From Acidimicrobiales bacterium (GTDB taxonomy: Bacteria; Actinomycetota; Acidimicrobiia; Acidimicrobiales; MedAcidi-G1): a stretch of 64,000 bases of DNA. Below are positions 1 through 47,914 of this stretch, in pieces (position 1 is the stretch's first letter; each line of letters begins with the position of its first letter). Made by a program: the position numbers and the translations under genes. The notes beneath the pieces were generated by a model. That model was not told where the DNA came from. It did no database searches and was given only the letters and a program-made list of their open reading frames with translations. The stretch covers positions 1 through 64,000 of the forward strand of contig JAKURV010000003.1 of the NCBI GenBank assembly GCA_022452035.1. Reading direction: 5' to 3'.

Positions 1-1
1 A

Positions 2-949
2 AACCTCGTCCAGGAATTCCCAGTCGGTCGCAACCGGGTGGTCCACGCGGTGTCCGACGTCTCTTTCGATCTCCGCAAAGGGGAGACCCTGGGCATTGTT
101 GGAGAATCCGGCTGCGGTAAGTCCACGACAGCTCGAGCCTTGGTCCAACTCCCACCGCCTACCAGCGGACGGGTGGTTCTCGACCCCGGCTCCGAAGATG
201 AGATCGACCTGACCGGCCTATCAGGTAACGACCTGCGCGATGTACGGCCGAGACTCCAGATGATCTTCCAGGACCCGATCTCGTCGCTGAACCCACGGCG
301 GCGGGTAAAAGACATCGTCAGTGAGGGTCTCGAAATCTGGTCCGACGGCGACATCGGGACCGAAGGAAGGGAACGAGTCGCAGAAGTCCTCCACGCCGTA
401 GGCATCGACCTGGCAGCGGCGGCCTCCCACCGGCCACACCAGTTCTCTGGCGGACAGTGCCAGCGGATCTCCATCGCCCGGGCGCTCACCGTGAACCCGG
501 AGATCCTGATTTGTGACGAGCCGGTCTCAGCTCTCGACGTTTCAGTCCAGGCAAAGATCCTGAACCTCCTGGAGGACATGAAGGCCCGCTACGACCTGAG
601 CCTCGTGTTCATCAGCCACGACCTGTCGGTGGTTCGCAATGTGAGCGACCGAGTCGTCGTGATGTACCTGGGAAAGCTCTGCGAGGTGGGCGACGCTGAC
701 CGCCTCTACGAGGCCCCGACCCACCCGTATACCAGGGCGCTGCTTGCCTCGGCACCCGAGCCGGCCCAATCAGTCGGCGTTGCCGACGCAGTCCTAGGCG
801 ACGAAATTCCTTCTCCCACCGACCCGCCGTCCGGCTGTCGATTCCGGACCAGATGTCCGGCGGCCTTCGACAGGTGCGCCGTCGAAGAACCGCAGATGCG
901 ACAACTAGGCGAGGACCACTTCGTGGCCTGCCACCTGCCGTCAACCTGA
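2..949 (+). CDS. Peptide-type ABC importer ATP-binding protein (DppF/OppF-like), 5' end outside window
   Basis: ATPase subunit of an oligopeptide/dipeptide-type ABC importer, acting at the inner face of the membrane. About 315 residues are visible. The frame is open to the left edge and residues before the first GTG (position 38) fit the family (LVQEF...VVHAVSDVSF), so the true start lies outside. Visible motifs are Walker A GESGCGKST (about 101-127), Q-loop MIFQDPISSLNPRR, signature FSGGQCQR, Walker B ILICDEPVSALD and the H-loop ISHDLS. The C-terminal extension with RFRTRCP is the oligopeptide/dipeptide transporter C-terminal domain. Partner permeases and the binding protein should lie upstream. 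Substrate cannot be told from this subunit. Confidence 0.9.
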   Translation, partial: NLVQEFPVGRNRVVHAVSDVSFDLRKGETLGIVGESGCGKSTTARALVQLPPPTSGRVVLDPGSEDEIDLTGLSGNDLRDVRPRLQMIFQDPISSLNPRRRVKDIVSEGLEIWSDGDIGTEGRERVAEVLHAVGIDLAAAASHRPHQFSGGQCQRISIARALTVNPEILICDEPVSALDVSVQAKILNLLEDMKARYDLSLVFISHDLSVVRNVSDRVVVMYLGKLCEVGDADRLYEAPTHPYTRALLASAPEPAQSVGVADAVLGDEIPSPTDPPSGCRFRTRCPAAFDRCAVEEPQMRQLGEDHFVACHLPST

Positions 950-975
950 TCGCGACGCTGCAAGCGCCTGATCAG
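946..975. terminator. Inverted repeat between convergent genes, possible bidirectional terminator
   Basis: CTGATC (946-951) and GATCAG (970-975) pair perfectly, with an inner CGCT/AGCG stem. The repeat contains both stop codons of the converging genes. There is no clear T-tract, so terminator function is a guess. Confidence 0.3.
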
Positions 976-2480
976 CGGACTACACCCTCCCAGGCAGAAC
1001 GCTCGTCAGCCCGAGGGTCATGAAGTAGACCGCACTGTTCGTCAAGTTCCATGACTACCCGGTCATCCGGTGAGTAACGAGGCCAGACGCCAAGCGTCGA
1101 CGTGGACGGGTCACCGTCGCGGATAAAAGCGATCCAAGCGTCGTGCATGATTTCGGCCAGTTCAGTCGGTACATCACCGGGCCCCAGGAACACGTCCACT
1201 CCCGCCTGGTCAATGGTGTTGAAGGTGAAGGGGATCTCCAAGGCGTGGGCGGCCCCGAACAGGCCGTCAAAGGCCCGAGAATCCCAGGAGAACCGGTACA
1301 TCCAAGTATCGGCACCGTGGGCACTCCGGTATTCGGCGTGACGGATAGCCGGGATGCCGAACACCAGGTCCGACGCAATGGCACAAGCCACCCATCCGGG
1401 CGTGGCATCGCCTAGCCGTCGCCGGTACACGTCAACCAGGGCGTCTGGGTCGTCGGCGATCCTGGCCACCATCTCGGCCGCTTGGTCGGAGTCCATGGCC
1501 GACACTCCCCACAGGGCCATCTCGTCCTCGTTGGTGCCGGTTAGCAGGGCCACGTCGGACCCTGCCCCGCTTGCGATCAGGTCCCGGGGGTCGTCGGGAA
1601 GGGCCTCGTGGCCCCACACCGGATAGAAGGGCTCCTGGCTTCGGCCCGTCTGCTGGCCACTCTCCTCGGCAACCTTCTCGGCAGCTTCAAGTATCCGTTT
1701 CACGTCCATGGACATCAGGTCGTCAGCCGACGGACCACCCAGCTGGTTCAGGAAACTTCCGGCAATCTCGCGGCCGTCATCAGGGTCAAAGGTGTGGTGG
1801 GCGGCCCCACTCTGGGCAATAGCCCGGTGGAACAGACCGTCAGTGGTCGACATGGCCAGCATGTTGGTGACGCTGAACGCCCCAGCTGACTCCCCTCCGA
1901 TGGTGACCCGATCGGGGTCACCGCCGAACGCTTCGATGTTCTCGTGGACCCACTGCAGGGCCGCCACCTGGTCCAGGGTGCCATTGACGCCACAGGTAGC
2001 GAAGTCGTCGCCCAGGTGGCCGGCCAGGTCGCAGAACCCGAGGGCTCCCAACCGGTAGTTGATGGTCACCACGACGATGTCGCCCCGGGTAGCAAACGAG
2101 GTGCCGTCGTACCAGGGGGTAGCCCCCTGGCCGTGCTTGTAGGCACCGCCGTGGATCCACACGTAGACGGGACGTCGGGCATCGTCACAGGCCGGGGTGA
2201 CGACGTTCAGGTACAGGCAGTCTTCGTCCCACGGAATCTCGAACCGGTTCGTGAGGCCCTCGCCCGGCAGTTGGGCTGATGCCGGACCGAATCGTCGGGA
2301 ATCTCGGATGCTGTCCCACGGTTTCGGAGATTCGGGGGCCCTGAAGCGTCGTGATCCGACCGGTGGGGCGGCGTACGGAATTCCAGCGAACAACTGGACG
2401 CCTCGACGGTGACGGCCCTGAAGTTCTCCCTGATCGACCAGGGTGATCGGGTAGTCGTCCGGACTTGCATCGGTGGTCAT
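972..2480 (-). CDS. Type-B carboxylesterase (alpha/beta hydrolase)
   Basis: Serine esterase of the carboxylesterase/para-nitrobenzyl esterase family, 502 residues, the normal length. It hydrolyses carboxylic esters; the natural substrate is unknown. Visible: oxyanion-hole HGG at about residue 110, nucleophile elbow GESAG with Ser about 198, an acidic residue in GTNEDEM and the catalytic His in GAAHALEIPF. There is no signal peptide, so it is probably cytoplasmic. The ATG at 2480 has no strong ribosome site. A 28-bp palindrome sits 27-54 bases upstream and may be its operator. It is convergent with the ABC ATPase gene and lies downstream of the ABC exporter on the same strand. Confidence 0.9.
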   Translation of the reverse strand: MTTDASPDDYPITLVDQGELQGRHRRGVQLFAGIPYAAPPVGSRRFRAPESPKPWDSIRDSRRFGPASAQLPGEGLTNRFEIPWDEDCLYLNVVTPACDDARRPVYVWIHGGAYKHGQGATPWYDGTSFATRGDIVVVTINYRLGALGFCDLAGHLGDDFATCGVNGTLDQVAALQWVHENIEAFGGDPDRVTIGGESAGAFSVTNMLAMSTTDGLFHRAIAQSGAAHHTFDPDDGREIAGSFLNQLGGPSADDLMSMDVKRILEAAEKVAEESGQQTGRSQEPFYPVWGHEALPDDPRDLIASGAGSDVALLTGTNEDEMALWGVSAMDSDQAAEMVARIADDPDALVDVYRRRLGDATPGWVACAIASDLVFGIPAIRHAEYRSAHGADTWMYRFSWDSRAFDGLFGAAHALEIPFTFNTIDQAGVDVFLGPGDVPTELAEIMHDAWIAFIRDGDPSTSTLGVWPRYSPDDRVVMELDEQCGLLHDPRADERSAWEGVVR

Positions 2481-2506: not shown

Positions 2507-2534
2507 CATGTCTGGACGGTACCGGTCAGACATG
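2507..2534. promoter_or_regulatory. 28-bp palindrome upstream of the esterase, candidate repressor operator
   Basis: The two 14-base halves match at 12 of 14 positions: outer arms CATGTCTG and CAGACATG, centre GGTACC. It spans the stop codon of the ABC exporter and the region 27-54 bases before the esterase start. Its size and symmetry resemble TetR-family operators. A terminator for the exporter is the alternative. Confidence 0.45.
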
Positions 2535-4412
2535 CCTGGATCCGCTTCCGGGGGCGGGCGTGGCTTCTCCTCGCATCAGTGTTTCCCACAGTTCGGCGTA
2601 AAGGCCGCCAGCGTCTCGGAGTTCCGGATGACGTCCGCGTTCGACGATCCGGCCGTCGTCGACCACCACGATTTCGTCCGCGTCGATGATGGTGGAAAGT
2701 CGGTGGGCGATGACGATGGCGGCCCGTCCGGCAAGTGCGGCAGCTAGGGCTTGTTGCACGACGGCTTCATTTTCAGCGTCGAGATGACTGGTGGCCTCGT
2801 CGAGTATGACTACTGACGGGTCCTTCAGCAGCAGGCGGGCGATAGCCAGGCGTTGCTTCTCTCCACCCGACATGCGGTGGCCACGCTCGCCAACCACCGT
2901 GTCATATCCATCGGGCAGGCGTTGCACCACATCGAGGATGCGAGATGCCCGACAGGCCTCATCCAGCTCAGTGTCGGTGGCGTCGGGTCGGGCGTACCGG
3001 AGGTTGGCGCCCACCGTGTCGTGAAACAGGTGGGGGTCCTGGGTGACCACGCCGATTCGGGCCCGCAGGTCGTCTTGACGCACTGACCGTATGTCGTGTC
3101 CATCGAGGGTGATTGACCCCTCGGTTACGTCATAGAGCCGAGGAACGAGGGAGGCCAGGGTGGACTTTCCAGATCCCGACGGTCCGACGATGGCCAGCAT
3201 CTGCCCGGGCCGGACTTCGAGGTCGACTTCGTGGAGCACGGTGTGGCCGGGCTTGCCAGGCGCAGCGTCGGTCTCTAGCGAAGCGACCGAGGTTTCGTCG
3301 ACCGTTGGGTACCGGAATGAAACCTTGCTGAAGACCATGTGGCCGTCGGCGGTAGGGAGGGCCCGGGCATCAGGTGCATCGGCGACAGGGTTAGGGGCGT
3401 CAAGCACCTCGAATACCCGTTCAAAGGAAACGAAGGCCGACATGACATCTACGCGGGCGTTGGTTAGCTGGGCTAGTGGCCCGTAGAGCAGGGCAACGAG
3501 CACTCCCATGGAAGCCAGCGTGCCGATGGTGATGGTCTCGTTTATAGCTAGCGAACCGCCGACCCAGTAGACGACGGCAGTGCCAACGGCCCCCAGAAGG
3601 GTCAGCGCGATGACGAAGGCCCGGCTGAACAGGGCCCCGCGGATCCCAATATCACGGACTCGCCCGGCCCGCTCTTGGAAGCCTTCGGTTTCTTCGTCGG
3701 GTCGTCCGAACAACTTGACCAATTGGGCCCCTGAGACGTTGAAACGCTCGGTCATCGTGGCGTTCATCGAGGCATTGAGGTTCATGCCCTCTCGGGTGAT
3801 ACCAGCCACGGTTCGACCGACTCGGCGAGCCGGAAGGATGAACAGCGGGAGCAGGACCATGGCCAGAAGGGTGATCCGCCACTCCAGGAGGAAAAGAGTG
3901 ACCAAGGTGGTTACTGCCGTAATCCCATTGGAGACGACCGTGCCGAGCGTTCCGGTCAGCGCCCGTTGGGCCCCGATCACGTCGTTGTTGAGGCGGCTGA
4001 CCAGAGCACCGGTCTGGGTGCGGGTGAAGAACGACAGAGGGAGGCGCTGGACGTGGTCGAACAATGCCACCCGCAGATCGAAGATGAGGCCTTCACCAAC
4101 CGTGGATGACGCCCACCGTTCCACGAACGACAAGACGGCCTGGGCGAGTGCCGCAGCGACCACTAGCAGGCCGAGCACGGTGAGGCGGTCGCGGTCGCCA
4201 ACCACGATGGCCTTGTCGATGATTTCCCGAAAGAGGAGGGGTGGGACTACACCGAGCAGCGAGGACAGGGTCACCACGATGAGGAAGCCGGCAACCATCC
4301 TCCGGTAGGGGCGGGCGAAACCCCAGACCCGCCTCCTGGTCTCGCGGTCGACCTGTGACGGCGTGTCTGACTGATACGACATCACATGGAGGAGATGCAT
4401 AGCGTTGCTCAC
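2526..4412 (-). CDS. ABC exporter, fused permease and ATPase (ABCB/MsbA type)
   Basis: Half-transporter of 628 residues that would work as a homodimer exporting lipids, peptides or drugs. The N-terminal half holds about six membrane segments (roughly residues 35-330). The C-terminal ATPase has Walker A GPSGSGKST, signature MSGGEKQR, Walker B VVILDEATSHLD and H-loop IAHRLST. An acidic/alanine-rich insert (about 355-385) precedes Walker A. The GTG start at 4412 is favoured because TAGGCT lies exactly six bases upstream on the coding strand, which fits a leaderless transcript. The substrate is not predictable from sequence. Confidence 0.9.
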   Translation of the reverse strand: MSNAMHLLHVMSYQSDTPSQVDRETRRRVWGFARPYRRMVAGFLIVVTLSSLLGVVPPLLFREIIDKAIVVGDRDRLTVLGLLVVAAALAQAVLSFVERWASSTVGEGLIFDLRVALFDHVQRLPLSFFTRTQTGALVSRLNNDVIGAQRALTGTLGTVVSNGITAVTTLVTLFLLEWRITLLAMVLLPLFILPARRVGRTVAGITREGMNLNASMNATMTERFNVSGAQLVKLFGRPDEETEGFQERAGRVRDIGIRGALFSRAFVIALTLLGAVGTAVVYWVGGSLAINETITIGTLASMGVLVALLYGPLAQLTNARVDVMSAFVSFERVFEVLDAPNPVADAPDARALPTADGHMVFSKVSFRYPTVDETSVASLETDAAPGKPGHTVLHEVDLEVRPGQMLAIVGPSGSGKSTLASLVPRLYDVTEGSITLDGHDIRSVRQDDLRARIGVVTQDPHLFHDTVGANLRYARPDATDTELDEACRASRILDVVQRLPDGYDTVVGERGHRMSGGEKQRLAIARLLLKDPSVVILDEATSHLDAENEAVVQQALAAALAGRAAIVIAHRLSTIIDADEIVVVDDGRIVERGRHPELRDAGGLYAELWETLMRGEATPAPGSGSRHV

Positions 4413-4445: not shown

Positions 4446-4464
4446 TAATCTGACGTTCCGTCAG
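4446..4464. promoter_or_regulatory. Promoter -10 TAATCT overlapping the perfect operator CTGACG-TTC-CGTCAG
   Basis: The inverted repeat (4450-4464) has perfect 6-bp arms around three bases. It overlaps a likely -10 box TAATCT (4446-4451) of the CoA-transferase gene, where a bound repressor would block RNA polymerase. The same arms recur at 6718-6732. A TetR-family protein is the likely reader, but this is inferred. Confidence 0.55.
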
Positions 4465-4508: not shown

Positions 4509-5753
4509 ATGGGCCTAGACGCCAACCGACCGTTAGGCGGTCTCAAGGTGATCGAGAGTTCACTGCTCGGCCCCGGCCTGGTGGCCACCTTCCTGGCCGA
4601 CCTGGGCGCCGACGTGGTCAAGGTGGAGCCGCCGTCTGGTGACTACATCCGGCAGATGACGTGGCCCATCGTGGACGGCACCTCACTGCTCCACCTCCAC
4701 ACCCACCGGGGCAAGCGCAGCATCGCCCTCGACCTCAAAACCGACGACGGCCTCGGGATCTACCGCGACCTGGTGCGAGAGGCCGACGTGGTGGTGGAGG
4801 CCATGCGACCGGGTTCGCTGGCCCGCCTAGGGATCGGCTTTGACGATCTTGTAGCCGTCAACCCTCAACTGGTCTTCTGCTCCGTGTCTGGCTACGGCGC
4901 CACGGGCCCCTACCGAGACATGCCCAGCCACGGCATCGCCTACGACACGTGGGCCGGTCTCATCGAGCCGGCCGTCGACGACCAGGGGTTCACCCGGATT
5001 CCCACGCTGCCCAACATCGGGATCAACGTCGGCCCCCTGATCGGGGCGCTAGGCATCCTGGCTGCCGTCCTCCGGGCCCGCGAGACGGGCAAGGGGACGT
5101 GGCTGGAAGTAGCCCAGTCCGACGCCGCGGCCTACATGGACTGGTACCGGATTGAGACCTACCGGGCCTACGACCGGCCAGCCGACGTGGTCACCGGCAA
5201 CGCCGCCGATGACTACGAGCGCCGCGAGCCGGGCCTGGCCGGCATGTGGGAAGGCGTCCGCTACCAGATTTACGAGGCGTCAGATGGCCACGTCCTCTTT
5301 ATGGCCTCTGAACAGGCGTTTTGGCGAAATTTCTGCGAGGGAGTTAACCGGATGGACCTCTTCGAGCAGTGGCCCGGCTCCACCTACGCCGACCATGCTC
5401 GCCACAACACCGAGCTTCAGACTGAGTTGAAGGCCATCTTCGCCACCCGGACCTGCACCGAGTGGCTGGACTTCTCAAACGAGGCCAACACGCCAATCGC
5501 TCCCGTTAACACGCCCCGTACAGCGCCGGACGACCCCCAGTTTTCCTACCGCTTGCCCTTCTACGGCATCGAAGACGTCGGCGCCGAGCAACTTCCCCTA
5601 CCCATCTACCTGGAGGGCGAGCTGCCACCCACGCCGACCATGGCGCCCCGGGTGGGAGAGCAGACCGACGAGGTCCTGGCCGAACTGGGCCTGTCGCCCG
5701 AGCGCATCGCCGAGCTTCGGGCCTCCGGAGCGGTGGGGCCCCGAGAGGGCTAG
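4509..5753 (+). CDS. CaiB/BaiF family (family III) CoA-transferase
   Basis: Moves CoA between an acyl-CoA donor and a carboxylic acid, 414 residues, usual length. The N-terminus has the family pattern (GPGLVATFLADLGADVVKVEPP...GD). The mid-protein QSDAAAYMDW holds the Asp expected to form the covalent anhydride. The reading frame also contains an ATG at 4467, but the ATG at 4509 follows GGGAGG by ten bases and matches the family start, so it is preferred. It is transcribed alone, under the operator-like repeat at 4450. With the nearby acyl-CoA ligases and MaoC protein it suggests breakdown of a CoA-activated acid. The acid cannot be named. Confidence 0.9.
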   Translation: MGLDANRPLGGLKVIESSLLGPGLVATFLADLGADVVKVEPPSGDYIRQMTWPIVDGTSLLHLHTHRGKRSIALDLKTDDGLGIYRDLVREADVVVEAMRPGSLARLGIGFDDLVAVNPQLVFCSVSGYGATGPYRDMPSHGIAYDTWAGLIEPAVDDQGFTRIPTLPNIGINVGPLIGALGILAAVLRARETGKGTWLEVAQSDAAAYMDWYRIETYRAYDRPADVVTGNAADDYERREPGLAGMWEGVRYQIYEASDGHVLFMASEQAFWRNFCEGVNRMDLFEQWPGSTYADHARHNTELQTELKAIFATRTCTEWLDFSNEANTPIAPVNTPRTAPDDPQFSYRLPFYGIEDVGAEQLPLPIYLEGELPPTPTMAPRVGEQTDEVLAELGLSPERIAELRASGAVGPREG

Positions 5754-5755
5754 CC

Positions 5756-5786
5756 GACCGGGTCACCGGTCGCCCTGAGCCCGGTC
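5756..5786. terminator. Hairpin between convergent genes, candidate bidirectional terminator
   Basis: GACCGGGTCA (5756-5765) pairs with TGAGCCCGGTC (5776-5786) with one bulged G and a ten-base loop. It sits just after the CoA-transferase stop and just before the end of the amidohydrolase-like gene on the other strand. No T-tract is visible. Confidence 0.4.
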
Positions 5787-5792
5787 GCCGGG

Positions 5793-6701
5793 TCAGACGT
5801 CGAGCCCGAGGACCTGGATTGCGTTCTCCCGTAGGAACTTCGGCCACACCTCGGCTTTGAACGGCACGTCACGCAGTTCAGTGAAGATCCGATCCAGCGA
5901 GAGGCCCATGGGGAAGTAACCGGCGTAGAGGATCTTGTCGGCACCTCGGGTGTTGGCGTAGTCGATGATGGCCTTCGGGTAGTGCTTAGGGGCGAAGGCT
6001 GAGGTCGAGTAGTAGAGGTTGGGCCACTTCAGCATCAGCTTGACGACGAGGTCCACCCATGGCTCACAACCGTGACGAGTTACGAAGGTCAGGTCCGGAA
6101 AGTCGTACATGACCTGGTCGATCAGCTCCACCTTCTGGGGGGCAAACGGCACCCGCGGGCCGGGAATGCCGGCACAGCAAAAGACCGGAAGGTTCAGCTC
6201 ACAGCACAACTCGTAGATGGCGTACATCTTCGGGTCGTCGATCGGCACCTGTGGATCCCGACCCGCCGGGAACGCAGTAATCGCCCTCAGTCCGTCGTCC
6301 CGATGGAGTCGGCGGATAGTGCGGATCGACTCCGGACCGTCGTTGGGGTCGGGCTCATGGCTGGGAATAAAACGGTCCGGGTGCTGCTCGATCATGGCCC
6401 GGCCTTCGCTCTTGTTAGGCCCGATGCCGATCATGGCCAATTGCACGTTGTTGCGGTCCATGAACGGGAGGCACAGGTCAGCCCCCTGGGGTGGATCCTG
6501 CGGTTCACCGTCACTGTCCCGTGCCTGGTCCGAGAACGGGACGTCCTTGAACATGTACTGGGCCGGAAAGTTCATGGACTTCGAGTCGGCGTCCCTGATC
6601 CCGGTGAGGTTGGCGTAGTTGAGTTTGGCGTTCGGCCCGGCCCGGGTGCCCATCATGGTGTCGACGGCCGCCACGTCGGTGGGGAACGTCCCGGTGGTCA
6701 T
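5793..6701 (-). CDS. Amidohydrolase_2-fold protein lacking most metal ligands
   Basis: 302 residues resembling the amidohydrolase-2 family (TIM-barrel hydrolases and decarboxylases). The central part (KMYAIYELCCELNLPVFC, DFPDLTFVTRHGCEPW, YYSTSAFAPKHYP) follows the family. However, the usual N-terminal HxH is replaced by VDTMMG, the strand-5 His by CCAG, and the GTD/GTN aspartate near the end by AGYFP. Only the His in TRHG and parts of the frame remain. The start at 6701 has GGAGG eight bases upstream. It is divergent from the SDR gene, with the operator-like repeat 6718-6732 between them. It may be a metal-free enzyme or a non-catalytic partner. Confidence 0.75.
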   Translation of the reverse strand: MTTGTFPTDVAAVDTMMGTRAGPNAKLNYANLTGIRDADSKSMNFPAQYMFKDVPFSDQARDSDGEPQDPPQGADLCLPFMDRNNVQLAMIGIGPNKSEGRAMIEQHPDRFIPSHEPDPNDGPESIRTIRRLHRDDGLRAITAFPAGRDPQVPIDDPKMYAIYELCCELNLPVFCCAGIPGPRVPFAPQKVELIDQVMYDFPDLTFVTRHGCEPWVDLVVKLMLKWPNLYYSTSAFAPKHYPKAIIDYANTRGADKILYAGYFPMGLSLDRIFTELRDVPFKAEVWPKFLRENAIQVLGLDV

Positions 6702-6717
6702 GGCCCCATCCTCCGAT

Positions 6718-6732
6718 CTGACGGCCCGTCAG
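6718..6732. promoter_or_regulatory. Operator-like inverted repeat CTGACG-GCC-CGTCAG
   Basis: A perfect 6-bp inverted repeat with a three-base centre, with arms identical to the site at 4450-4464. It lies in the 86-bp divergent region between the amidohydrolase-like gene and the SDR gene. A shared repressor for this block is a plausible reading. Confidence 0.5.
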
Positions 6733-6787
6733 GCAAACCCTGGCGCCGGGAGCGCGGTCAGAAGCCGACGGACGCGAGACTCCCGGT

Positions 6788-7585
6788 ATGGACGACGGGC
6801 CAACCGGGCGACGCCTGAGCCGCCTCAGCCGGTCGGTGGCCGACCACCGGGTGCTGGTCACTGGAGCGGGGTCGGGGATCGGTCGGGCCACCGCCCACCT
6901 TTTCGCCGACGAGGGGGCAACGGTGGCCGTCACCGACCGGGACGGGGACCGCGTCGACGAGGTAGTAGCCGAAATCGAAGGCGTTGGGGGACGGGCCGCC
7001 GGATGGGAGTTGGACGTCACCGACCGGGAGGCCGTCGACCGGGTGGTAGCCGAGGCAGCCGACAGGTTCGGCGGCCTGGACGTGCTGGTCAACAACGCTG
7101 GGTTGGCTGCAGGCGCCCTGATCGACGATCCGTCCTACGAGGAGACCTGGCACCTCTCTCTCGACGTCATGCTCACCGCTCTGACCTCCTGCATCCGAGC
7201 TGCTCTCCCGCACCTCCGCGAGTCATCCGCCGGCCGGATCGTGAACCTTGCATCCACCGAGGGGGTCGGCGGTTCGGCCGGCCTGTCGGCCTACACCTCG
7301 GCCAAACACGGCGTGGTCGGCCTCACCCGAGCCCTGGCCGTGGAGTTAGGCGGGTCAGGCGTCACCGTCAACGCGGTGGGTCCCGGCCCGATCCGTACCG
7401 GTATGACGGCGGCCATCCCCGAGGAGAACAAACAGAAGTTCGCTCGACGCAGGGTGCCCGAGCGGCGCTACGCCGAACCCGAGGAGGTTGCACACGGCAT
7501 CCTCCACCTAGCCCTGCCAGCCTCCAGCTACATCACCGGCCACTTGTTGATGGTCGACGGCGGGATGACCATCAAGAACAACTGA
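6788..7585 (+). CDS. Short-chain dehydrogenase/reductase (SDR)
   Basis: NAD(P)-dependent oxidoreductase of 265 residues with a Rossmann fold. Visible: cofactor loop TGAGSGIG near residue 24, acidic TDRDGD after strand 2 (favouring NAD), NNAG, Ser in NLASTEG, YTSAK with the catalytic Tyr and Lys, and PGPIRTGM. About 20 extra residues precede the first strand, so the start could be slightly later. The ATG at 6788 has GAGACT six bases before it, possibly a weak -10. It reads away from the amidohydrolase-like gene. Probably oxidises or reduces a hydroxyacyl or alcohol intermediate; the substrate is unknown. Confidence 0.88.
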   Translation: MDDGPTGRRLSRLSRSVADHRVLVTGAGSGIGRATAHLFADEGATVAVTDRDGDRVDEVVAEIEGVGGRAAGWELDVTDREAVDRVVAEAADRFGGLDVLVNNAGLAAGALIDDPSYEETWHLSLDVMLTALTSCIRAALPHLRESSAGRIVNLASTEGVGGSAGLSAYTSAKHGVVGLTRALAVELGGSGVTVNAVGPGPIRTGMTAAIPEENKQKFARRRVPERRYAEPEEVAHGILHLALPASSYITGHLLMVDGGMTIKNN

Positions 7586-7610
7586 CCTCGGACTCACTCA
7601 AGGCCAGTAG

Positions 7611-8087
7611 TCAACCCTGGTAGAGAGCCAGGGCCTCATAGAGCACGGCCGGCACGTCGTCGTTTCCCACCACGTGGATAGCCACCTGAGTGGCAACCAG
7701 CGTGCCCTTCTTGTGCTCACGAACATCCCTGATCCGGTTCCGGGCATGAAGCACCGATCCCACGGGAACCGGGGCCAGGAGCCTCATCCCGTCGGCCCCG
7801 TAGTTCACGACGTTCTGCTGGCCCGTGATCTTCACGTGACCGGCGCGGTTCAAGGTGGGTAAGAGACTGAGGGTGAAGAAACCATGGGCGATCGGCCCAC
7901 CGAACGGACCAGCATTTGCCCGCTCAACATCCACGTGGATCCACTGGTGGTCACCGGTCAGGTCAGCGAACTGGTTCACCTTCTCCTGGGTCATCTCGTA
8001 CTCGGGACCCCAGTCGCTCCACTCTTCGGTGATAACGGAGCGGAGCCCTTCTAGGTCATTAAACGCGATCTCCGGTAGGTCGCTCAT
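7611..8087 (-). CDS. MaoC-like (R)-specific enoyl-CoA hydratase/dehydratase
   Basis: Hot-dog fold hydratase of 158 residues. The MaoC motif is clear: FADLTGDHQWIH (catalytic Asp and His), then GPFGGPIAHGFFTLSLLP. Its likely role is hydration of a 2-enoyl-CoA or a related CoA ester. The ATG at 8087 is chosen because AGGAGA lies eight bases upstream and the family begins near there. A much longer in-frame extension to 8516 runs into the opposite gene and has no family similarity. It shares a 152-bp divergent region with the acyl-CoA ligase, consistent with joint use in one pathway. Confidence 0.88.
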   Translation of the reverse strand: MSDLPEIAFNDLEGLRSVITEEWSDWGPEYEMTQEKVNQFADLTGDHQWIHVDVERANAGPFGGPIAHGFFTLSLLPTLNRAGHVKITGQQNVVNYGADGMRLLAPVPVGSVLHARNRIRDVREHKKGTLVATQVAIHVVGNDDVPAVLYEALALYQG

Positions 8088-8150
8088 CGAGTCATTCTCC
8101 TGCAGTCTGCTGATTGATCTATTGCCATTGTGGCCGTCAACCAACGTTCC

Positions 8151-8176
8151 GAGGCCAACCGGGCGCCCGTTGCCTC
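8151..8176. promoter_or_regulatory. 26-bp inverted repeat in the MaoC/acyl-CoA ligase divergent region
   Basis: GAGGC(C)AAC(C)GGGC pairs with GCCCGTTGCCTC; two single-base bulges interrupt otherwise perfect arms around a GGGCGCCC centre. It sits between two divergent starts, and a TAGGGT -10 candidate for the ligase lies at 8196-8201. It may be an operator or an RNA hairpin. Confidence 0.35.
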
Positions 8177-8239
8177 GACCAGGCACGGCCCGTCCTAGGG
8201 TCGGCGTCCGGCAGATACGACGTGGGGAAGGGAATTCGG

Positions 8240-9976
8240 GTGGACCGGCACTATCGCGAGGCATGGGAAGAACTGACCGCACCCGGCGCGCCCTTTGCCT
8301 GGTCGGTGACCGACGTCCGCGGCGTCCCCACCCGGACATACGACGCTGCCCCGCCGAACATGGCTCAGGTCTGGGCCGGTTCAATAGTTCACGGCGATGC
8401 CGATTACCTCGTCTACGAAGATGAGCGGATGTCCTACGCCGAGGCTCACAAAGCGGTCGACGCCCTGGCTGCCCACCTATCCGACGTTGGGGTAGGGCAC
8501 GGAGATCGGGTGGCACTGGCCCTACGGAACTACCCCGAGTGGGCCCTGGCCTACTGGGCCACCGTGCGTCTGGGAGCCGTGGTGATTGGGATGAACGCCT
8601 GGTGGACTGGCCCGGAGCTGGAGTTCGGCCTGGCCGACTCGACTCCCAAGGTCATGGTGTGCGACGCCGAACGTTTAGATCGGGTGATGCCTCATCTCGC
8701 CGGGCTCCGATCCAGCGGACCCCTCCACCTGGTAGGTGTTCGGCTTCCCGCCGGGACCAGGCTTCCCGATGACGCCGTTCGGTGGGAGGACGCCCTAGCT
8801 GGTGCTGCAGAACACGGACCGGCTCCTGAACCCACCATCGATCCCGATGACGACCTCTGCGTCTTTTACACGTCGGGTACTACCGGCCACCCCAAAGGGG
8901 CTGTGCTGACCCATCGTGGTGCCACCTCCAACCTTTTCAACCTGGGTTTCTGGCAGGTCATGGCCGCGTCAGCGGAGGCCCGGGCAGTGGCGGCAGGGGA
9001 ACCTCCTCCAGGGTCCGAGAAGAAAGCCGGAGAGTCGTACCCCGGTTCAGTATTGGCTGTTCCGCTCTTTCATGTCACCGGCTGTAACTGCTGCCTCCAC
9101 CCGATCACCGCCGTGGGCGGCAGGCTCACCCTTATGCACCGCTGGGATCCCGAGGTGGCGCTGGAGTTGATTGAACGAGAACGGCCCGCCAGTTTGACTG
9201 GAGTGCCGACCATGACCCGTGAGTTGCTCAACAGCCCCGACTTTGAACGACGCGACACTTCCAGCCTTTCCCACGTAGGCGGTGGTGGAGCACCGGTACA
9301 GCCCGATCTGGTGCACAAGATCGAGGACCGATTGGAGGGCCGGCCCAGTACCGGCTACGGGTTGACCGAAGTCAACGGGGTCATCACCATCAACGTTGGG
9401 CACTTCTTCATGGCCAAGCCGGCCTCGGCAGGTTCACCGTGCCCGATCATGGAGACTCGGATCGTGGCCGAGGACGGTACCGATCAAGGGCCGGGTGAGC
9501 ACGGCGAGCTGTGGGTCCGCGGCGGAAACGTGTTCCGCGGTTACCTGAACCGACCGGAGGCCAATGCCGAGGCCCTGACCGACGGGTGGTTCCACACCGG
9601 TGACATTGGCTACCTGGATGACGACGGCTTCTTGTTTCTCGTCGACCGGGCCAAGGACATGGTTCTGCGCAGCGGTGAGAACGTCTACTCGGCCGAGGTA
9701 GAGGCAGCCATCTACGAACACCCGGCAGTGGCCGAAGCCGCGGTATTCGCAGTTCCCGATGAACGCCACGGCGAAGCGGTAGGCGCGGCAATCGTTCTGC
9801 TTCCTGGGGCCGAATGTTCAGCCGAGGAACTGCGGGACCACACCCGTCGCTTGATCGCCGTGTTCAAGGTGCCGGAACACCTGTGGTTCCTGGACGAGGC
9901 GTTGCCCACTAACGCCAATGGCAAGTTCGTTAAACGCGACCTTCGGGACCGTCTGGTCGGTACACCGAGCAACTGA
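8240..9976 (+). CDS. Acyl-CoA ligase (AMP-forming), first of a tandem pair
   Basis: Activates a carboxylic acid to its CoA thioester through an acyl-adenylate, 578 residues. ANL-superfamily motifs are present: YTSGTTGHPKGAVLTH (P-loop), GYGLTE, DGWFHTGDIGY, and the C-terminal Lys in NANGKFVKRD. The GTG at 8240, after GGGAAGGG, fits the family start; the upstream in-frame stretch from 8114 lacks similarity. The next ligase gene follows after ten bases with its own ribosome site, so the two are cotranscribed. The opening residues (APGAPF...VRGVPTRT) resemble those of that neighbour. The substrate acid is unknown, perhaps aromatic or medium-chain. Confidence 0.9.
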   Translation: MDRHYREAWEELTAPGAPFAWSVTDVRGVPTRTYDAAPPNMAQVWAGSIVHGDADYLVYEDERMSYAEAHKAVDALAAHLSDVGVGHGDRVALALRNYPEWALAYWATVRLGAVVIGMNAWWTGPELEFGLADSTPKVMVCDAERLDRVMPHLAGLRSSGPLHLVGVRLPAGTRLPDDAVRWEDALAGAAEHGPAPEPTIDPDDDLCVFYTSGTTGHPKGAVLTHRGATSNLFNLGFWQVMAASAEARAVAAGEPPPGSEKKAGESYPGSVLAVPLFHVTGCNCCLHPITAVGGRLTLMHRWDPEVALELIERERPASLTGVPTMTRELLNSPDFERRDTSSLSHVGGGGAPVQPDLVHKIEDRLEGRPSTGYGLTEVNGVITINVGHFFMAKPASAGSPCPIMETRIVAEDGTDQGPGEHGELWVRGGNVFRGYLNRPEANAEALTDGWFHTGDIGYLDDDGFLFLVDRAKDMVLRSGENVYSAEVEAAIYEHPAVAEAAVFAVPDERHGEAVGAAIVLLPGAECSAEELRDHTRRLIAVFKVPEHLWFLDEALPTNANGKFVKRDLRDRLVGTPSN

Positions 9977-9986
9977 GGAGGGCCAC

Positions 9987-11690
9987 GTGCCTGACCAGGA
10001 CGATGCACCGGTCGCCGATGGTGACCCAGATCCGATGGCAGCAGTCATGGCATTGCTGGCCCCCGGGGCTCCGTTTGAGATGGGAACCGAGAAGGTGCTG
10101 GGCGTTCCCCTTCAGGTCTTCGTCCAACGGGCTGGTTCACTACGCGAGTTGCTGACATCGTCAACCCGGTTCGGAGACGTTGACTATGCGGTATTCCACG
10201 ATGGAGACCGTCGCCGGGCAGTGACCTTCACCGAACATGAGCGCCGGGTGGCCTCGGTCGCTGCCGCCCTAGCGGACCGAGGGATCGGGCCTACCGACCG
10301 GGTGGCAATCCTGGCCGCCAATTGTCCGGAATGGTTGGAGACCTTTTGGGCAGTGGTGTCGTTGGGGGCGATCGCCGTGGCCTGTAACGGCTGGTGGACC
10401 CGTGACGAGGTCGAGCACGCCCTGGCTCATACCCGCCCGGTGCTCCTTGTGGCCGACCGGAAACGCCTGGCTCGACTAGAGGGTGCCGATCCGGGCATGC
10501 CAGTCGTCGTGATCGAAGACGACTTCGTCGCACTCCAAGAGTTCTCCCCTGATGCCGCCCTACCCAACGTAGCCATCGACGAGGACCAGCCAGCACTGCT
10601 CCAGTTCACCTCGGGGACCACCGGCCAGCCCAAAGCCGCCATACTCAGCCACCGCAGCATCGTTGCCTTCGTCCAGGTCGTCACCTTCCTGGGTGCCGCC
10701 CAGGCAGCCTCGGTCGGGGCATCGACGTCCGGCACAACTCGACCTCGTCTAGCCGTATTCCCCATGTTCCACATCTCGGGCCTACAGAGTTCCAGCGTCA
10801 CCCCGATGGCCACTGGTGCCGGCAACGTCTGGCCCATGGGGAAGTTCGACCCGGCCACCGTGATCCGGCTGACAAACGAAGAACGGATCTACGCGTGGAA
10901 CGGCACAGCCACCCATATTTTCCGCCTGTTGGAGGATCCGACAATTAAGGATTTGGACGCGACCCTGATCGAGACCGTGGCCATCGGCGGTTCAGCAAGC
11001 ACCCCAGAGCTCATCCGAGCTACCGAAGAGCGGTTCCCTCACCTAGTGGACACCTTCACCTCCGGCTACGGCCTAACCGAGTCAGGTGGGATGGTCAGCC
11101 ACGCCAGCAACGAGATGCTGAAGGCCAACCCTGACAGCGTCGGCATAGCCATGCCAACCGTCGAGTTGAAGATCGTCAATGACGATGGCGTCGAGTTGCC
11201 CGAAGGCGAGAACGGCTCAATCTGCGTGCGCAGCCCCCTGACCATGATCGGCTACTGGGAAGACGAGGACGCGACAGCCGCGGCGATCCTGTCCGACCGA
11301 TGGCTACAGACCGGCGACTTCGGCCGTTTGGAAGGTGGCCAACTGTTTCTGGCCAGCCGGCTGCGGGACCTAATCCTCCGCGGTGGTGAAAACGTTTACC
11401 CGGCCGAGGTCGAGGCCCGACTTGAACAGCATCCCGCAGTCGCCGAGTGTGCAGTCGGCGGAGTCGACCACCGGACCCTCGGCCAGGAGGTCAAGGCCTA
11501 CGTCGTGTTGCGCCCCGGGAAAACCCTGGACTTGGAAGAGGTGAGGGCGTTCTGCGCAAAGGTTCTCGCCTCCTACAAGCTGCCTGACCACCTCGAGGTC
11601 CTCGAAGAACCCCTGCCACGCAACGCCACCGGCAAAGTGCTTAAGACAGTCCTGCAAGGCGAAGCCGTCCAGACGTTTATCGAAGAGTAG
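9987..11690 (+). CDS. Acyl-CoA ligase (AMP-forming), second of a tandem pair
   Basis: 567-residue ANL-superfamily ligase with FTSGTTGQPKAAILSH, GYGLTE, WLQTGDFG and the C-terminal catalytic Lys in NATGKVLKTV. The GTG at 9987 follows GAGGAGGG and lies ten bases after the previous stop; the frame extending back to 9918 overlaps the first ligase and is not used. The N-terminal APGAPFE...KVLGVPLQ parallels that of the first ligase, suggesting an old duplication with changed specificity. The carotenoid-oxygenase gene follows after 46 bases, probably in the same transcript. It could act on a cleavage product, but this is inferred from position only. Confidence 0.9.
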   Translation: MPDQDDAPVADGDPDPMAAVMALLAPGAPFEMGTEKVLGVPLQVFVQRAGSLRELLTSSTRFGDVDYAVFHDGDRRRAVTFTEHERRVASVAAALADRGIGPTDRVAILAANCPEWLETFWAVVSLGAIAVACNGWWTRDEVEHALAHTRPVLLVADRKRLARLEGADPGMPVVVIEDDFVALQEFSPDAALPNVAIDEDQPALLQFTSGTTGQPKAAILSHRSIVAFVQVVTFLGAAQAASVGASTSGTTRPRLAVFPMFHISGLQSSSVTPMATGAGNVWPMGKFDPATVIRLTNEERIYAWNGTATHIFRLLEDPTIKDLDATLIETVAIGGSASTPELIRATEERFPHLVDTFTSGYGLTESGGMVSHASNEMLKANPDSVGIAMPTVELKIVNDDGVELPEGENGSICVRSPLTMIGYWEDEDATAAAILSDRWLQTGDFGRLEGGQLFLASRLRDLILRGGENVYPAEVEARLEQHPAVAECAVGGVDHRTLGQEVKAYVVLRPGKTLDLEEVRAFCAKVLASYKLPDHLEVLEEPLPRNATGKVLKTVLQGEAVQTFIEE

Positions 11691-11736
11691 AAACCCGGCG
11701 CGGTGAGGCGGCGGGGGCCTGTGGGAGGCTCCGGCC

Positions 11737-13089
11737 ATGGTCGGTGACAACCCCTATCTGGAGGGCGCCCTGGCACCGGTACCCGACGAGGTCCTAGCGC
11801 TGGACCTACCAGTGACCGGGACTTTGCCTGAGGAGCTGGAGGGCCGGTGGCTCCGTAACGGCCCGAATCCCCTGGGGCCAACTGATCCGGCCACCCACCA
11901 TTGGTTCTTAGGGGACGGGATGGTCCACGGCGTGAGGTTGTGCGGCGGCCGAGCCGAGTGGTACCGCAACCGTTGGGTCCGTGGCCCGAGGGTGGCCGAG
12001 GCGCTAGGGGAGCCCCACCCCGCCGGGACCTCCTTTGGCGATCGAGACTTCGGGCCCAACACTTCCGTGGGCGGGTTTGCCGGCAAGACGTGGGCCATGG
12101 TCGAGGCAGGAACAACACCGATGACCCTGACTTACGAACTGGACACCATCGACTACGACGATTTCGAAGGCACACTCCCGGCCGGCTTCACCGCCCACCC
12201 GAAGTTCGACCCGACGACCGGTGAGTTACATGGCGTCTGCTACGCGTACCCCGACCTTCCAGACCGGGTACAGCATGTGGTCGTCGGTCCGGAAGGAACG
12301 GTGTCCTCGGTGACCGACGTTCCCGTCGACGGAATGCCCATGGTCCACGACATGTCGCTGACCGAGACAAACGTCCTGATCTACGACCTTCCGGTGTGCC
12401 TCGACCTTGAAATGGCCATCGGTGGTTCACCCTTCCCGTTCTCCTGGAACCCAAATCATCCGGCTCGGGTCGGGGTCCTGCCTCGTGCTGGTACGGCGGA
12501 CGACGTGGTGTGGTGCGAAGCCCCACAGGCCTATGTATTCCACCCTGTCAACGCTTACGACACCGGAGATGGTGGCGTGGTGGTCGACGTGTGCCGGTAC
12601 AACTCGATGTTTGATCAGGACCGACGAGGACCGGTAGGTGACAGCGCCCCGACACTGGCTCGGTGGACGGTGGATTCGACGACCCGGCGGGTAACCGAGA
12701 AGCCTCTCGCTGACGGCCACCACGAGTTCCCGGCCCACGACCCACGGGTCGCCACTAGGTCCTACCGGTATGCGTACACAGCGGACGGCCTGACGCTGGG
12801 GCCGACCACCCGTATCGACGTGGAGACCGGTACCTCGGTCATTCACGACCACGGAAAGGGACGTTACGGAGCCGAACCAGTGGTCATCCCCAAGTATCGC
12901 TCGACCACCGAGGACGACGTCTGGGTGCTGGTGTGCGTCAACGACCGGGCCGGTGGCCCCGCAGAACTGGTGGTCCTCGACGGAGGTGATCTGGCCAGTC
13001 CGCCGGTGGCCCGGGTACACCTCCCCCGCAGGGTTCCGGACGGATTCCATGGTTCATGGATACCCGACTCCTCAGTACCACCACCGTGA
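11737..13089 (+). CDS. Carotenoid/stilbene-cleaving dioxygenase (RPE65/CCD family)
   Basis: Non-haem iron oxygenase of 450 residues that would split a carbon-carbon double bond in a carotenoid, apocarotenoid or stilbene-type compound to aldehydes or ketones. All four iron-binding His are visible: H154 (TAHPKFDP), H204 (MVHDMS), H269 (FHPVNA) and H438 (FHGSWIPD). The N-terminal LEGRWLRNGPNP and the DGMVHGVRL strand are also family marks. The ATG at 11737 follows GGGAGG by eight bases. The stop codon overlaps the next start (GTGA). Linked acyl-CoA ligases could activate acids formed from the aldehyde products. Lignostilbene versus carotenoid substrate cannot be settled here. Confidence 0.9.
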   Translation: MVGDNPYLEGALAPVPDEVLALDLPVTGTLPEELEGRWLRNGPNPLGPTDPATHHWFLGDGMVHGVRLCGGRAEWYRNRWVRGPRVAEALGEPHPAGTSFGDRDFGPNTSVGGFAGKTWAMVEAGTTPMTLTYELDTIDYDDFEGTLPAGFTAHPKFDPTTGELHGVCYAYPDLPDRVQHVVVGPEGTVSSVTDVPVDGMPMVHDMSLTETNVLIYDLPVCLDLEMAIGGSPFPFSWNPNHPARVGVLPRAGTADDVVWCEAPQAYVFHPVNAYDTGDGGVVVDVCRYNSMFDQDRRGPVGDSAPTLARWTVDSTTRRVTEKPLADGHHEFPAHDPRVATRSYRYAYTADGLTLGPTTRIDVETGTSVIHDHGKGRYGAEPVVIPKYRSTTEDDVWVLVCVNDRAGGPAELVVLDGGDLASPPVARVHLPRRVPDGFHGSWIPDSSVPPP

Positions 13090-13715
13090 GTACCGAACAT
13101 GCCCAGGCCGAACGAGGCCTCCTATGCGACCTGATGTTGGAGGCGGGTCCCGACGCGCCGACCCTGTGCGAGGGATGGACCACGGCACACCTGGCCGCCC
13201 ACCTGTGCCTCCGGGAGCGCCGACTCGACGTGGGCCTAGGCCTGGTCTTGCCCGGACCGTTCGCCCACTACACGGCGTGGACCACCGACCGGGTGGCCCA
13301 ACGGGCCCCCTTCGAGAGCCTCGTCTCCCGGATCCGGTCAGGACCACCAACCCTGGTCCGACCGATCGACGGGCCGATGAACCTGTTGGAGTTCTTCGTC
13401 CACATCGAGGACATCCGACGGGCCGTCGAAGGGTGGTCGCTCCGAGAGAACGAGGCCCTCCAGGACGCCCTGTGGCCGTTCCAGCGGTCCCGGACCAAGA
13501 TGCAGACCCGACGGTTGGACGACGTAGACCTGTCAATCGCCCGGCGGGGCGGGCCGGCCGTCCACGTGCGGTCCGGGATCCGCCAGGTCACGGTGACCGG
13601 CGAGCCAGGTGAGCTGGCGCTGTACTTCTTCGGGCGGCGCGACCATGCCGTGGTGGATCTCGACGGCGACCCAGAGGGGATCCGCGAGGTGTCCACCGCT
13701 CCGATCGGCTTCTAG
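13086..13715 (+). CDS. TIGR03085 family protein (DinB/maleylpyruvate isomerase-like fold)
   Basis: 209 residues matching the actinobacterial TIGR03085 group: AERGLLCDLM, GPDAPTLCEGWTTAHLAAHL, RERR, and FFVHIEDIRRA with a conserved His. This four-helix fold usually binds a metal through three His and is linked to mycothiol-dependent or metal-dependent chemistry; the exact reaction is not known. The GTG at 13086 overlaps the oxygenase stop codon as GTGA, indicating translational coupling, and fits the family start. An ATG at 13056 is possible but would add eleven unrelated residues. Confidence 0.85.
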   Translation: MSTEHAQAERGLLCDLMLEAGPDAPTLCEGWTTAHLAAHLCLRERRLDVGLGLVLPGPFAHYTAWTTDRVAQRAPFESLVSRIRSGPPTLVRPIDGPMNLLEFFVHIEDIRRAVEGWSLRENEALQDALWPFQRSRTKMQTRRLDDVDLSIARRGGPAVHVRSGIRQVTVTGEPGELALYFFGRRDHAVVDLDGDPEGIREVSTAPIGF

Positions 13716-13736: not shown

Positions 13737-14861
13737 ATGGTCTCTGATGAACGTCGACCGACGCTGCCCTGCTTGGTGGTCTGCCCACCGGGCCTGGAGG
13801 ACGTGGTGACCGCCGAGTTGGACGACCTGGGGATCCGGGCGCGGCGGACGGGCAAGGGCTCGATCTCGGCGGACCTGACGACCCGGCAGCTGTACGCCGC
13901 CAACCTGTTCCTGCGGTCGGCAACTCGCGTGCTGGTTCGGGTGGCCCGGTTTACCGTGCGGTCCTTCGCCGACCTGGAGCGCTGGATCAGAGAGGTGGAC
14001 TGGGACCCGTGGATCGGGCCGGAGGATCGGCCACGGGTACGGGTCACCACCCGGCACTCGAAGCTCTGGCACGACGGCGCAGTGGCTGAACGCTTCACCT
14101 CGGTGCTGGGCCCGGGGTCCGAAGAGGGACGAGAACAGCTGGTAGTCGTGCGGGCTGTGGACGACCGGTTCACAGTCAGCGTGGACTCCTCGGGGGCACC
14201 ACTCCACGAGCGGGGGTGGAGGCAGGCCACGGCACGGGCTCCCCTCCGGGAGTCGGTGGCCGCAGCGCTGCTGACCGCTGCTCGGTGGGATCCCACTACG
14301 CCCCTCGTCGACCCGCTCTGCGGGTCGGGGACCATCGCCATCGAGGCGGCGCTGCGGGCCACCGGATCCGCCCCTGCCGGTCAGCGGGATCTGGCGTTCC
14401 AGTCGTGGCCGGGGTTCGAACCTGGGACGTGGGCCAGCGTCACCGCCGAGGCCGACCGACGGGTCTCCGAGGCCGGCGCGGTGCCATCCATCGTGGCCGC
14501 TGACCGCGATGCGGGTGCCATCGAGTCGGCACAGTCCAACGCCCAACGGGCCGGGGTGGAGGACCTCATCGAGTGGCGGCGGGCCCCCATCGCCGACCTG
14601 GCCCCTCCCGCCGGCGTCCAGGCAGAGAGCGGCCTACTGGCCACCAACCCACCGTGGGGTGGTCGAGTGTCCGGCGGCGACCTCCGGAACCTCTACGCCA
14701 CGCTTGGTCGGGTGGCGGCCGAACGGTTCGCAGGCTGGTCCTTGGGAGTACTGGTTGCCGACCGGGGCCTGGCCCGCCAGGTGCGGCCCGGCCTCACCGA
14801 GACGCTCGACCTGGAACTCGGCGGCCGACGGGCCTGGTTCCTGACCGGCCGGGTCGGCTAA
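13737..14861 (+). CDS. THUMP-domain SAM-dependent RNA methyltransferase (RlmL N-half/Trm14-like)
   Basis: 374 residues. The N-terminal part (about 10-160) looks like a THUMP RNA-binding region (PPGLEDVVTAELDDLG, QLYAANLFLRSATRVLVRVA). The C-terminal part is a Rossmann-like methyltransferase with VDPLCGSGTIAIEAAL as SAM-binding motif I and NPPWGG as the N-P-P-aromatic catalytic motif of N2-guanine or N6-adenine methylases. Most likely it methylates rRNA or tRNA in the cytoplasm; the target base cannot be assigned. The ATG at 13737 follows a GGGGAGGCGGGAG ribosome site. It trails the TIGR03085 gene by 21 bases. Confidence 0.85.
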   Translation: MVSDERRPTLPCLVVCPPGLEDVVTAELDDLGIRARRTGKGSISADLTTRQLYAANLFLRSATRVLVRVARFTVRSFADLERWIREVDWDPWIGPEDRPRVRVTTRHSKLWHDGAVAERFTSVLGPGSEEGREQLVVVRAVDDRFTVSVDSSGAPLHERGWRQATARAPLRESVAAALLTAARWDPTTPLVDPLCGSGTIAIEAALRATGSAPAGQRDLAFQSWPGFEPGTWASVTAEADRRVSEAGAVPSIVAADRDAGAIESAQSNAQRAGVEDLIEWRRAPIADLAPPAGVQAESGLLATNPPWGGRVSGGDLRNLYATLGRVAAERFAGWSLGVLVADRGLARQVRPGLTETLDLELGGRRAWFLTGRVG

Positions 14862-47907: not shown

Positions 47908-47914
47908 GGGCCGC

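Follow-up and report, generated by a model that had tools for sequence, protein, structure and literature searches.

A carotenoid-type cleavage oxygenase recurs beside acyl-CoA ligases, as an optional member of their operon, in marine Acidimicrobiales

Several described systems resemble parts of the locus considered here. MtCCO (Rv0654) of Mycobacterium tuberculosis is a carotenoid cleavage oxygenase (CCO) whose host has no carotenoid synthesis genes, according to the part of the source available to us (PMC5133782). In lignostilbene dioxygenase, the stilbene is bound by Phe59, Tyr101 and Lys134, as given in the accessible portion of another report (PMC8191317). Here we analyse a window of 64,000 nucleotides (the whole stretch of DNA, G000:C3:1-64000) from a bacterium of the MedAcidi-G1 family of Acidimicrobiales, in which a CCO gene stands beside two acyl-coenzyme A (acyl-CoA) ligase genes, ACS1 and ACS2, and a gene for a TIGR03085 protein. 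To our knowledge, microbial degradation of carotenoid-derived material in the ocean is poorly known at the gene level; our literature searches returned no previous description of bacterial genes for carotenoid catabolism linked with activation to CoA thioesters, nor any reports on Acidimicrobiales with a carotenoid oxygenase or steroid degradation.

The genome assembly is 2.18 Mb in size and 96.1% complete, with a G+C content of about 64-71%. In the MedAcidi-G1 family, photic genera lie near 42% G+C and deep or aphotic genera at 57-72%, as far as the available text of the source goes, the main text of which never mentions carotenoid (PMC10205998). Judged from its G+C content, the host would by inference be a member of a deep genus. 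The named relatives of its CCO come from marine Acidimicrobiales bins, including MedAcidi-G1 and MedAcidi-G2B.

The pairing of a carotenoid-type oxygenase with neighbouring acyl-CoA ligases recurs in other genomes, and CCO is an optional add-on of the ligase operon. Tentatively, and at somewhat less than an even chance, we read the region as two neighbouring units: a TetR-controlled set of genes for CoA catabolism (Unit 1), and a ligase-CCO-TIGR03085 operon in which CCO would be an optional front end acting on an exogenous polyene (Unit 2). The operon, the divergent MaoC gene and the last same-strand gene are arranged as follows.

7611..~8087, minus strand: MaoC-type enoyl-CoA hydratase-like protein (PF01575, E 4.8e-23, matching the C-terminal half of a long open reading frame)
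8240..9976, plus strand: ACS1, acyl-CoA ligase of the long-chain/steroid-24-oyl type (AMP-binding, E 3e-79)
~9987..11690, plus strand: ACS2, acyl-CoA ligase closest to the steroid-24-oyl-CoA synthetase CasG (NF052580, 592.7 bits)
11737..13089, plus strand: CCO, carotenoid cleavage oxygenase of the RPE65 family (PF03055, E 1.4e-99, 334.7 bits)
13086..13715, plus strand: TIGR03085 protein with a mycothiol maleylpyruvate isomerase-like fold (TIGR03085, 181.4 bits)
13737..14861, plus strand: RlmL-like rRNA methyltransferase, the last same-strand gene and probably a housekeeping gene (PF01170, E 6.7e-40)

The four genes from ACS1 to TIGR03085 (8240-13715) share one strand, with gaps of about 10 nt between ACS1 and ACS2 and 46 nt between ACS2 and CCO, and the CCO stop and the presumed GTG start of TIGR03085 overlap as GTGA (13086-13089); the operon-like spacing described in an initial annotation made from the sequence alone is thus borne out. 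ACS2 probably starts at a presumed GTG at 9987, behind GAGGAG. The position of the Pfam match and the coding score place the true start of MaoC near 8087 and not at 8516.

Linkage was compared across 28 loci of the family (L041-L055 and L068-L080). A ligase of the ACS1 or ACS2 type lies within 5 kb of CCO in 22 of them; the six others are L042, where the contig ends, L050, L053-L055 and L070. In every family locus that has both genes (22/22, 28 examined), the extrapolated TIGR03085 start falls between -8 and +34 nt from the CCO stop. Adjacency of CCO and ligase was seen in genera g1, g3, g5 and g6, and genus g3 has the order CaiB-SDR-MaoC-ACS1-CCO-TIGR03085. Because gene order is kept in other genera of the family, the grouping goes beyond chance. 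In a phylogenetic tree of CCO, the 29 sequences of the family form one clade (100/100), with g2 and g3 as sister groups, and CCO is therefore taken as ancestral in the family. The CCOs of two records titled Bifidobacterium breve and Acidobacteria (L163, L164) group among Acidimicrobiales in this tree; these records are probably mislabelled or mixed bins.

The arrangement is also found, in another gene order, outside the family. A ligase match lies within 700 bp downstream of CCO in 5/51 such loci (L161, L162, L167, L174 and L181) and elsewhere in two more (L168, L199). The binomial p value for the downstream adjacency is 1.0e-5 by locus and 0.0016 by lineage (three of five lineages), with lineages collapsed by eye and the downstream slot chosen after the data had been seen. 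The ligase at L162 rests on tblastn; of ten open reading frames near L162 and L167, Pfam left seven without a family, mostly wrong-frame ones.

Neighbours nevertheless separate in some relatives. In G001, G005 and G015, ACS2 is followed directly by TIGR03085 and RlmL, with no CCO between them. No CCO match at E <= 1e-30 was found in G005 and G015, bins that are 78% and 91% complete and can miss genes; for G011 and G016 there was no match to either CCO or ACS2. The CCO of G001 lies about 150 kb away from its ACS2-TIGR03085 operon on the same contig. Its DNA is 95.8% identical to that of the window over 1383 bp (window 11712-13094, little beyond the gene), whereas ACS1-ACS2 of G001 are only 74.6% identical; this difference fits a recent single-gene transfer, and CCO is probably movable. 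Conversely, four g2 loci (L050, L053-L055) have CCO without these neighbours within about 20 kb, as judged by tblastn with the window proteins, the gene caller having listed no genes there. Four g4 genomes (G019, G024, G028 and G040) carry the cluster as two parts on different contigs, one with CaiB/AH or CaiB/SDR/MaoC/ACS1 and the other with ACS2/CCO/TIGR03085.

The coupling is thus not obligatory, for the ligases, TIGR03085 and Unit 1 can be kept where CCO is lacking, and CCO can stand apart from them. The initial annotation had named unlinked oxygenases as evidence against its pathway and co-occurrence in other genomes as a check: the gene order is indeed conserved in the family, but unlinking occurs in both directions. 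The separations, the transfer-like pattern of the lone gene in G001 and the lack of an operator at the CCO operon (see below) all favour a rival explanation in which CCO is a passenger that makes a signalling or detoxified apocarotenoid or serves another purpose, while the genes around it are for the breakdown of an unrelated acid. We consider this unlikely, though a serious contender, given the CCO-ligase adjacency in four genera and beyond the family, and the nearly touching CCO and TIGR03085 genes wherever both are present.

CCO belongs to the PF03055 superfamily by its family score, its four iron-binding histidines (154, 204, 269 and 438) and three acidic second-shell residues (Glu123, Glu330 and Glu380). 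Among 75 homologues, His204, His269 and Glu123 are present in all, His154, His438 and Glu380 in at least 95%, and Glu330 is Glu in 69 and Asp in six; in a second alignment (n = 32) the four histidines, Glu123 and Glu380 are invariant. Three NCBIfam models match, by far the best being NF052295 (8'-apo-carotenoid 13,14-cleaving dioxygenase), a model that we take to be linked to Rv0654. At 510.9 bits CCO does not reach its equivalog cut-off of 675, a point against the proposed substrate class.

The predicted structure of CCO (pLDDT 93.4) ranks its relatives differently. Lignostilbene enzymes head the fold ranking, with LsdA at Z 45.7 (427 residues aligned, 2.3 Å; a second LsdA row at 45.1) and others at Z 43-45; VP14 follows closely at Z 44.7 (433 aligned, 2.5 Å) and the apocarotenoid oxygenase ACO lies lower (Z 41.8). 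This ranking, which counts against an apocarotenoid enzyme, is what speaks for lignostilbene-type cleavage of phenolic stilbenes (lignin-derived aromatics). That alternative is nevertheless highly improbable. When CCO is aligned to 5v2d, the Phe is kept (Phe57), Lys134 is replaced by Val122 and Tyr101 has no equivalent, and residue 122 is Val in 70 and Ile in five of the 75 homologues. The lignostilbene model NF053778 scores 182 bits against a cut-off of 800, and plant carotenoid dioxygenases outrank 5v2d as matches by sequence. A lignostilbene dioxygenase identity is disfavoured on these grounds. Sequence and residues, not fold, favour the carotenoid type, and CCO is probably of the apocarotenoid type. 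The earlier description of a four-His carotenoid/stilbene oxygenase thus holds for the histidines and the carotenoid option; in the comparison with both enzyme groups, suggested at the same time, the aligned residues point away from stilbene and the modelled fold ranks LsdA first.

The substrate of CCO is probably exogenous, since phytoene synthase (PF00494) was found neither in the host nor in 30 family relatives (no match in the 31 genomes searched); cleavage of self-made carotenoids is accordingly disfavoured. Matches to PF00494 occur in 5/51 genomes overall. Rhodopsin (PF01036) occurs in 2/51 genomes, both of genus g3 (G018 and G023). These two genomes (L097 and L098, respectively) have two CCO genes each and no phytoene synthase match; with rhodopsin present and phytoene synthase absent, their retinal might derive from outside carotenoids. 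Their rhodopsins give some substance to the idea that CCO supplies retinal for rhodopsin, as does the retinal that MtCCO yields from some substrates, according to the available part of its description (PMC5133782). Such a role is extremely improbable for the window and is disfavoured for the host genome, which has no PF01036 match, nor do the 16 genus mates searched (heliorhodopsin models were not searched). Together with the recurring CCO-ligase arrangement, the lack of phytoene synthase and rhodopsin matches fits catabolism of an exogenous substrate.

Unit 1 and its predicted operators lie upstream of MaoC.

2526..4412, minus strand: ABCb, MsbA-like ATP-binding cassette (ABC) permease/ATPase (Pfam ABC_membrane and ABC_tran); shares the operator at 4450-4464 with CaiB
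4450..4464, no strand: predicted palindromic operator, CTGACGTTCCGTCAG (exact match, just upstream of CaiB)
4509..5753, plus strand: CaiB, CoA-transferase family III, a CoA transferase or racemase (PF02515, CoA_transf_3, E 3.9e-78)
5793..6701, minus strand: AH, amidohydrolase-fold protein that has lost its metal ligands (PF04909, Amidohydro_2, 85.4 bits)
6718..6732, no strand: predicted palindromic operator, CTGACGGCCCGTCAG (exact match, between the divergent AH and SDR genes)
6788..7585, plus strand: SDR, short-chain dehydrogenase/reductase (PF13561, E 4.5e-64)

CaiB probably starts at ATG 4509, preceded by GGGAGG. All eight genes that the initial annotation had named are present and are assigned by Pfam or NCBIfam. 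The genes it grouped (4509-13715) do lie there, but AH and MaoC are on the minus strand and the region therefore comprises several transcription units. Further upstream (window 1-2480) are a Dpp/Opp-type ABC ATPase, of which relatives have two, and a carboxylesterase, conserved at this place in g1, g3 and g4 (L046, L270-L277); they are possibly an importer and an esterase for the substrate of the cluster. Elsewhere in the window, a 4-kb stretch (44001-48000) is marked by a strong AT skew of -0.277.

The initial annotation made no mention of the palindromes, both of them perfect, at 4450-4464 and 6718-6732. CTGACG-N3-CGTCAG has nine exact copies in the genome, two of them in the window, against 0.26 expected under an independent-base model and none for the reversed control. 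Fourteen upstream regions were compared across loci for matches with at most one mismatch (counts include the window). Such sites precede ABCb in 11/15 loci, CaiB in 12/23, AH in 10/22 and SDR in 9/25. None was found before MaoC (25 loci), ACS1 (26), ACS2 (17), CCO (31), TIGR03085 (25), RlmL (17), LLM (12), YceI (15), MFS (10) or CE (17); LLM regions have a two-mismatch match in 2/12. That the operator acts directly on the CCO operon is thus disfavoured, and the restriction of the palindrome to the CaiB/ABC and AH/SDR promoters counts against one linear pathway. The earlier proposal of a single route from a carotenoid- or stilbene-type compound to acyl-CoA is supported in part: the ligase-CCO association and the lack of phytoene synthase and rhodopsin matches in the host speak for it, the separations and the operator positions against one linear pathway.

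Other genomic sites adjoin genes for an acyl-CoA dehydrogenase, a second CaiB, two Amidohydro_2 proteins and SDRs, and another lies beside an HMG-CoA-synthase-like/ChsH2-OB protein followed by a thiolase. A one-mismatch site stands beside a CoA-transferase alpha subunit, the best PDB match of which is 6co6 (E 3.2e-97), presumably IpdA. An Amidohydro_3 gene (L065:17837-19573) and a gene for a GH3 glycosidase with a PA14 domain (L066:71-2626) flank one operator, an odd setting for a CoA regulon. A CaiB homologue (59%) in G059, which belongs to another family, is accompanied by a site with one mismatch. No related literature was found for the palindrome sequence.

A candidate regulator is P0002 on contig C26, one of 13 TetR genes in the genome, which has a two-mismatch palindrome at its own start. 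Its TetR_N domain scores 39.8 bits, over the cut-off, and a PDB search returned weak, partial TetR relatives only. P0002 homologues are present in 28/30 genomes with at least two exact sites and in 3/31 with fewer (61 genomes; Fisher p = 9.3e-12, inflated by relatedness); by genus the figures are 9/10 and 3/20 (p = 1.3e-4). In 21/22 family orthologues the gene start carries a palindrome with no more than two mismatches (four perfect, seven with one and ten with two mismatches; L228 has none). Since another two-mismatch match, located elsewhere than at the gene start, is present in 9/22 of these loci, two mismatches by themselves say little and it is the position that counts. Of the TetR homologues outside the family, L235 and L238 begin with a palindrome that has one mismatch. 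Unit 1 is thus probably controlled by P0002 through the palindrome, and its action would probably be repression.

The ligases and the regulon suggest a further explanation, that the whole region serves steroid- or bile-acid-type catabolism, with CCO acting on a sterol-like or other isoprenoid compound. ACS2 is nearest to steroid-24-oyl-CoA synthetase, and both the 6co6-like subunit and the ChsH2-OB domain protein stand beside operators. The cut-off of the CasG model (NF052580, 750) is, however, missed by ACS2 and by ACS1 (403.6 bits; NF004837, 413.5 bits against 476), and no KshA (PF19298) match at E <= 0.001 was found in the 96.1% complete host genome, on which ground classical 9,10-seco steroid degradation is disfavoured. 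Steroid-type enzyme families serve other polycyclic or branched acids too. We regard this explanation, which overlaps with the two-unit reading, as fairly improbable; as the readings overlap, their likelihoods need not add up to one.

Two partner proteins deserve separate consideration. Metal-dependent amidohydrolases are expected to have a DxHxH (HxH) motif and an Asp as metal ligands. AH belongs to PF04909 by score (cut-off 26.4), but lacks the HxH and Asp ligands across 29 aligned sequences: DTMMG stands in place of DxHxH and YAGYFP in place of the Asp strand, so that its earlier description as degenerate is correct. Its motifs are DTMMG, RHGCEPW and YAGYFP, and T15, M16, H210 and Y259-P264 are invariant in the 29 sequences; its active site is possibly a non-metal one. 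The AH model (pLDDT 78.7) is closest to 3irs, a protein of unknown function (Z 24.4, 259 aligned, 3.0 Å). AH has matches in 69/149 genomes, with an identity of at least 46% in 52, and lies on contigs other than that of CCO in G001, G010 and g4. AH is thus an independent family, and a role as CCO-specific partner was rejected. G059 (L262) has seven AH matches, five at 49% identity or more; DTMMG-, RHGCEP- and YAGYFP-like motifs are kept in the AH family as a whole.

The TIGR03085 protein exceeds its family cut-off of 138.85, and His49, Glu112 and His116 are invariant in 23/23 sequences; we take them to be the likely metal triad, after mycothiol-dependent maleylpyruvate isomerase. MshC scores 450.9 bits in the host, under the cut-off of 485.1, and exceeds the cut-off in 0/31 genomes, so that mycothiol is without support from the gene search.

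The two-unit reading may be spelled out as follows. Unit 1 (the ABC protein, CaiB, the degenerate AH and SDR) would be repressed by P0002 binding to the palindrome and would form part of a small, dispersed regulon for CoA-thioester catabolism. Unit 2 has MaoC divergent from it and no such operator in the upstream regions compared. The four-His iron of CCO would cleave a double bond of an (apo)carotenoid-like polyene that had been taken up; the aldehydes or ketones so formed would be oxidised to acids by an enzyme encoded outside the cluster. ACS1 and ACS2 would then turn the bulky acids into CoA thioesters, and MaoC, SDR, CaiB and the regulon enzymes would shorten them. As an optional front end, CCO would broaden the choice of substrates open to the ligases, the operon of which persists without it. 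A bolder version, which we consider improbable, holds that marine Acidimicrobiales have a TetR-controlled CoA pathway for carotenoid-derived polyenes of seawater, with CCO as a single-gene cassette lost and regained, and TIGR03085 as a mycothiol-type partner that takes the reactive aldehyde.

Besides the separations of CCO from its neighbours, several observations weigh against the two-unit reading. The cluster contains no aldehyde dehydrogenase. In five of the relatives examined, a gene on the opposite strand intervenes between ACS2 and CCO. The operators are missing from genus g3 although the cluster is there, and the CaiB site is missing from most g4 loci even though g4 holds the TetR. The co-occurrence of TetR and operator has exceptions in both directions (G004 and G051 in one, and G048, G059 and G067 in the opposite one) and its figures cover P0002 alone of the 13 TetRs; the TetR of L093 also has a two-mismatch match near its start, and of eight TetR homologues from outside the family six lack a palindrome at this position. 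The gene between ACS2 and CCO (L073:12493-13794, L074:11036-12094, L075:9551-10681, L078:9586-10632 and L079:2925-4070) is absent in the window and resembles, by eye, a relative of cobalamin-independent methionine synthase.

If the bolder version is true, it would help to trace what becomes of recalcitrant organic matter of the carotenoid-like kind. Named genes (CCO, ACS1/ACS2 and TIGR03085) and a predicted repressor with its operator are now available for testing, and the CCO-minus and CCO-transferred genomes form a natural comparison set. More generally, a conserved neighbourhood need not be one pathway, as the separation of these neighbours in relatives illustrates.

Comparison with known systems places the locus between several of them. 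Like MtCCO, the window CCO has four histidines, NF052295 as its best NCBIfam model and a host without carotenoid synthesis genes, as far as the accessible description of MtCCO extends (PMC5133782); it differs in scoring below the cut-off of that model. Lignostilbene dioxygenases (LsdA, LSD4 and 5v2d) share fold (Z 43-46) and iron site with CCO, which differs in its missing phenol-binding Lys and Tyr and its low family score. CasG is the nearest named family of ACS2, which scores below its cut-off. KstR2-type TetR regulons, which belong to actinobacterial steroid catabolism, are alike in being small and dispersed, with an IpdA-like subunit and CoA-catabolic genes; the KstR2 site is presumably a different palindrome, and the regulon described here includes CaiB and amidohydrolases in a genome with no KshA match. 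Finally, the mycothiol-dependent maleylpyruvate isomerase/DinB fold (TIGR03083/TIGR03085) occurs here as the neighbour of a CCO, in a ligase operon that presumably sets the window CCO apart from the neighbourhood of Rv0654.

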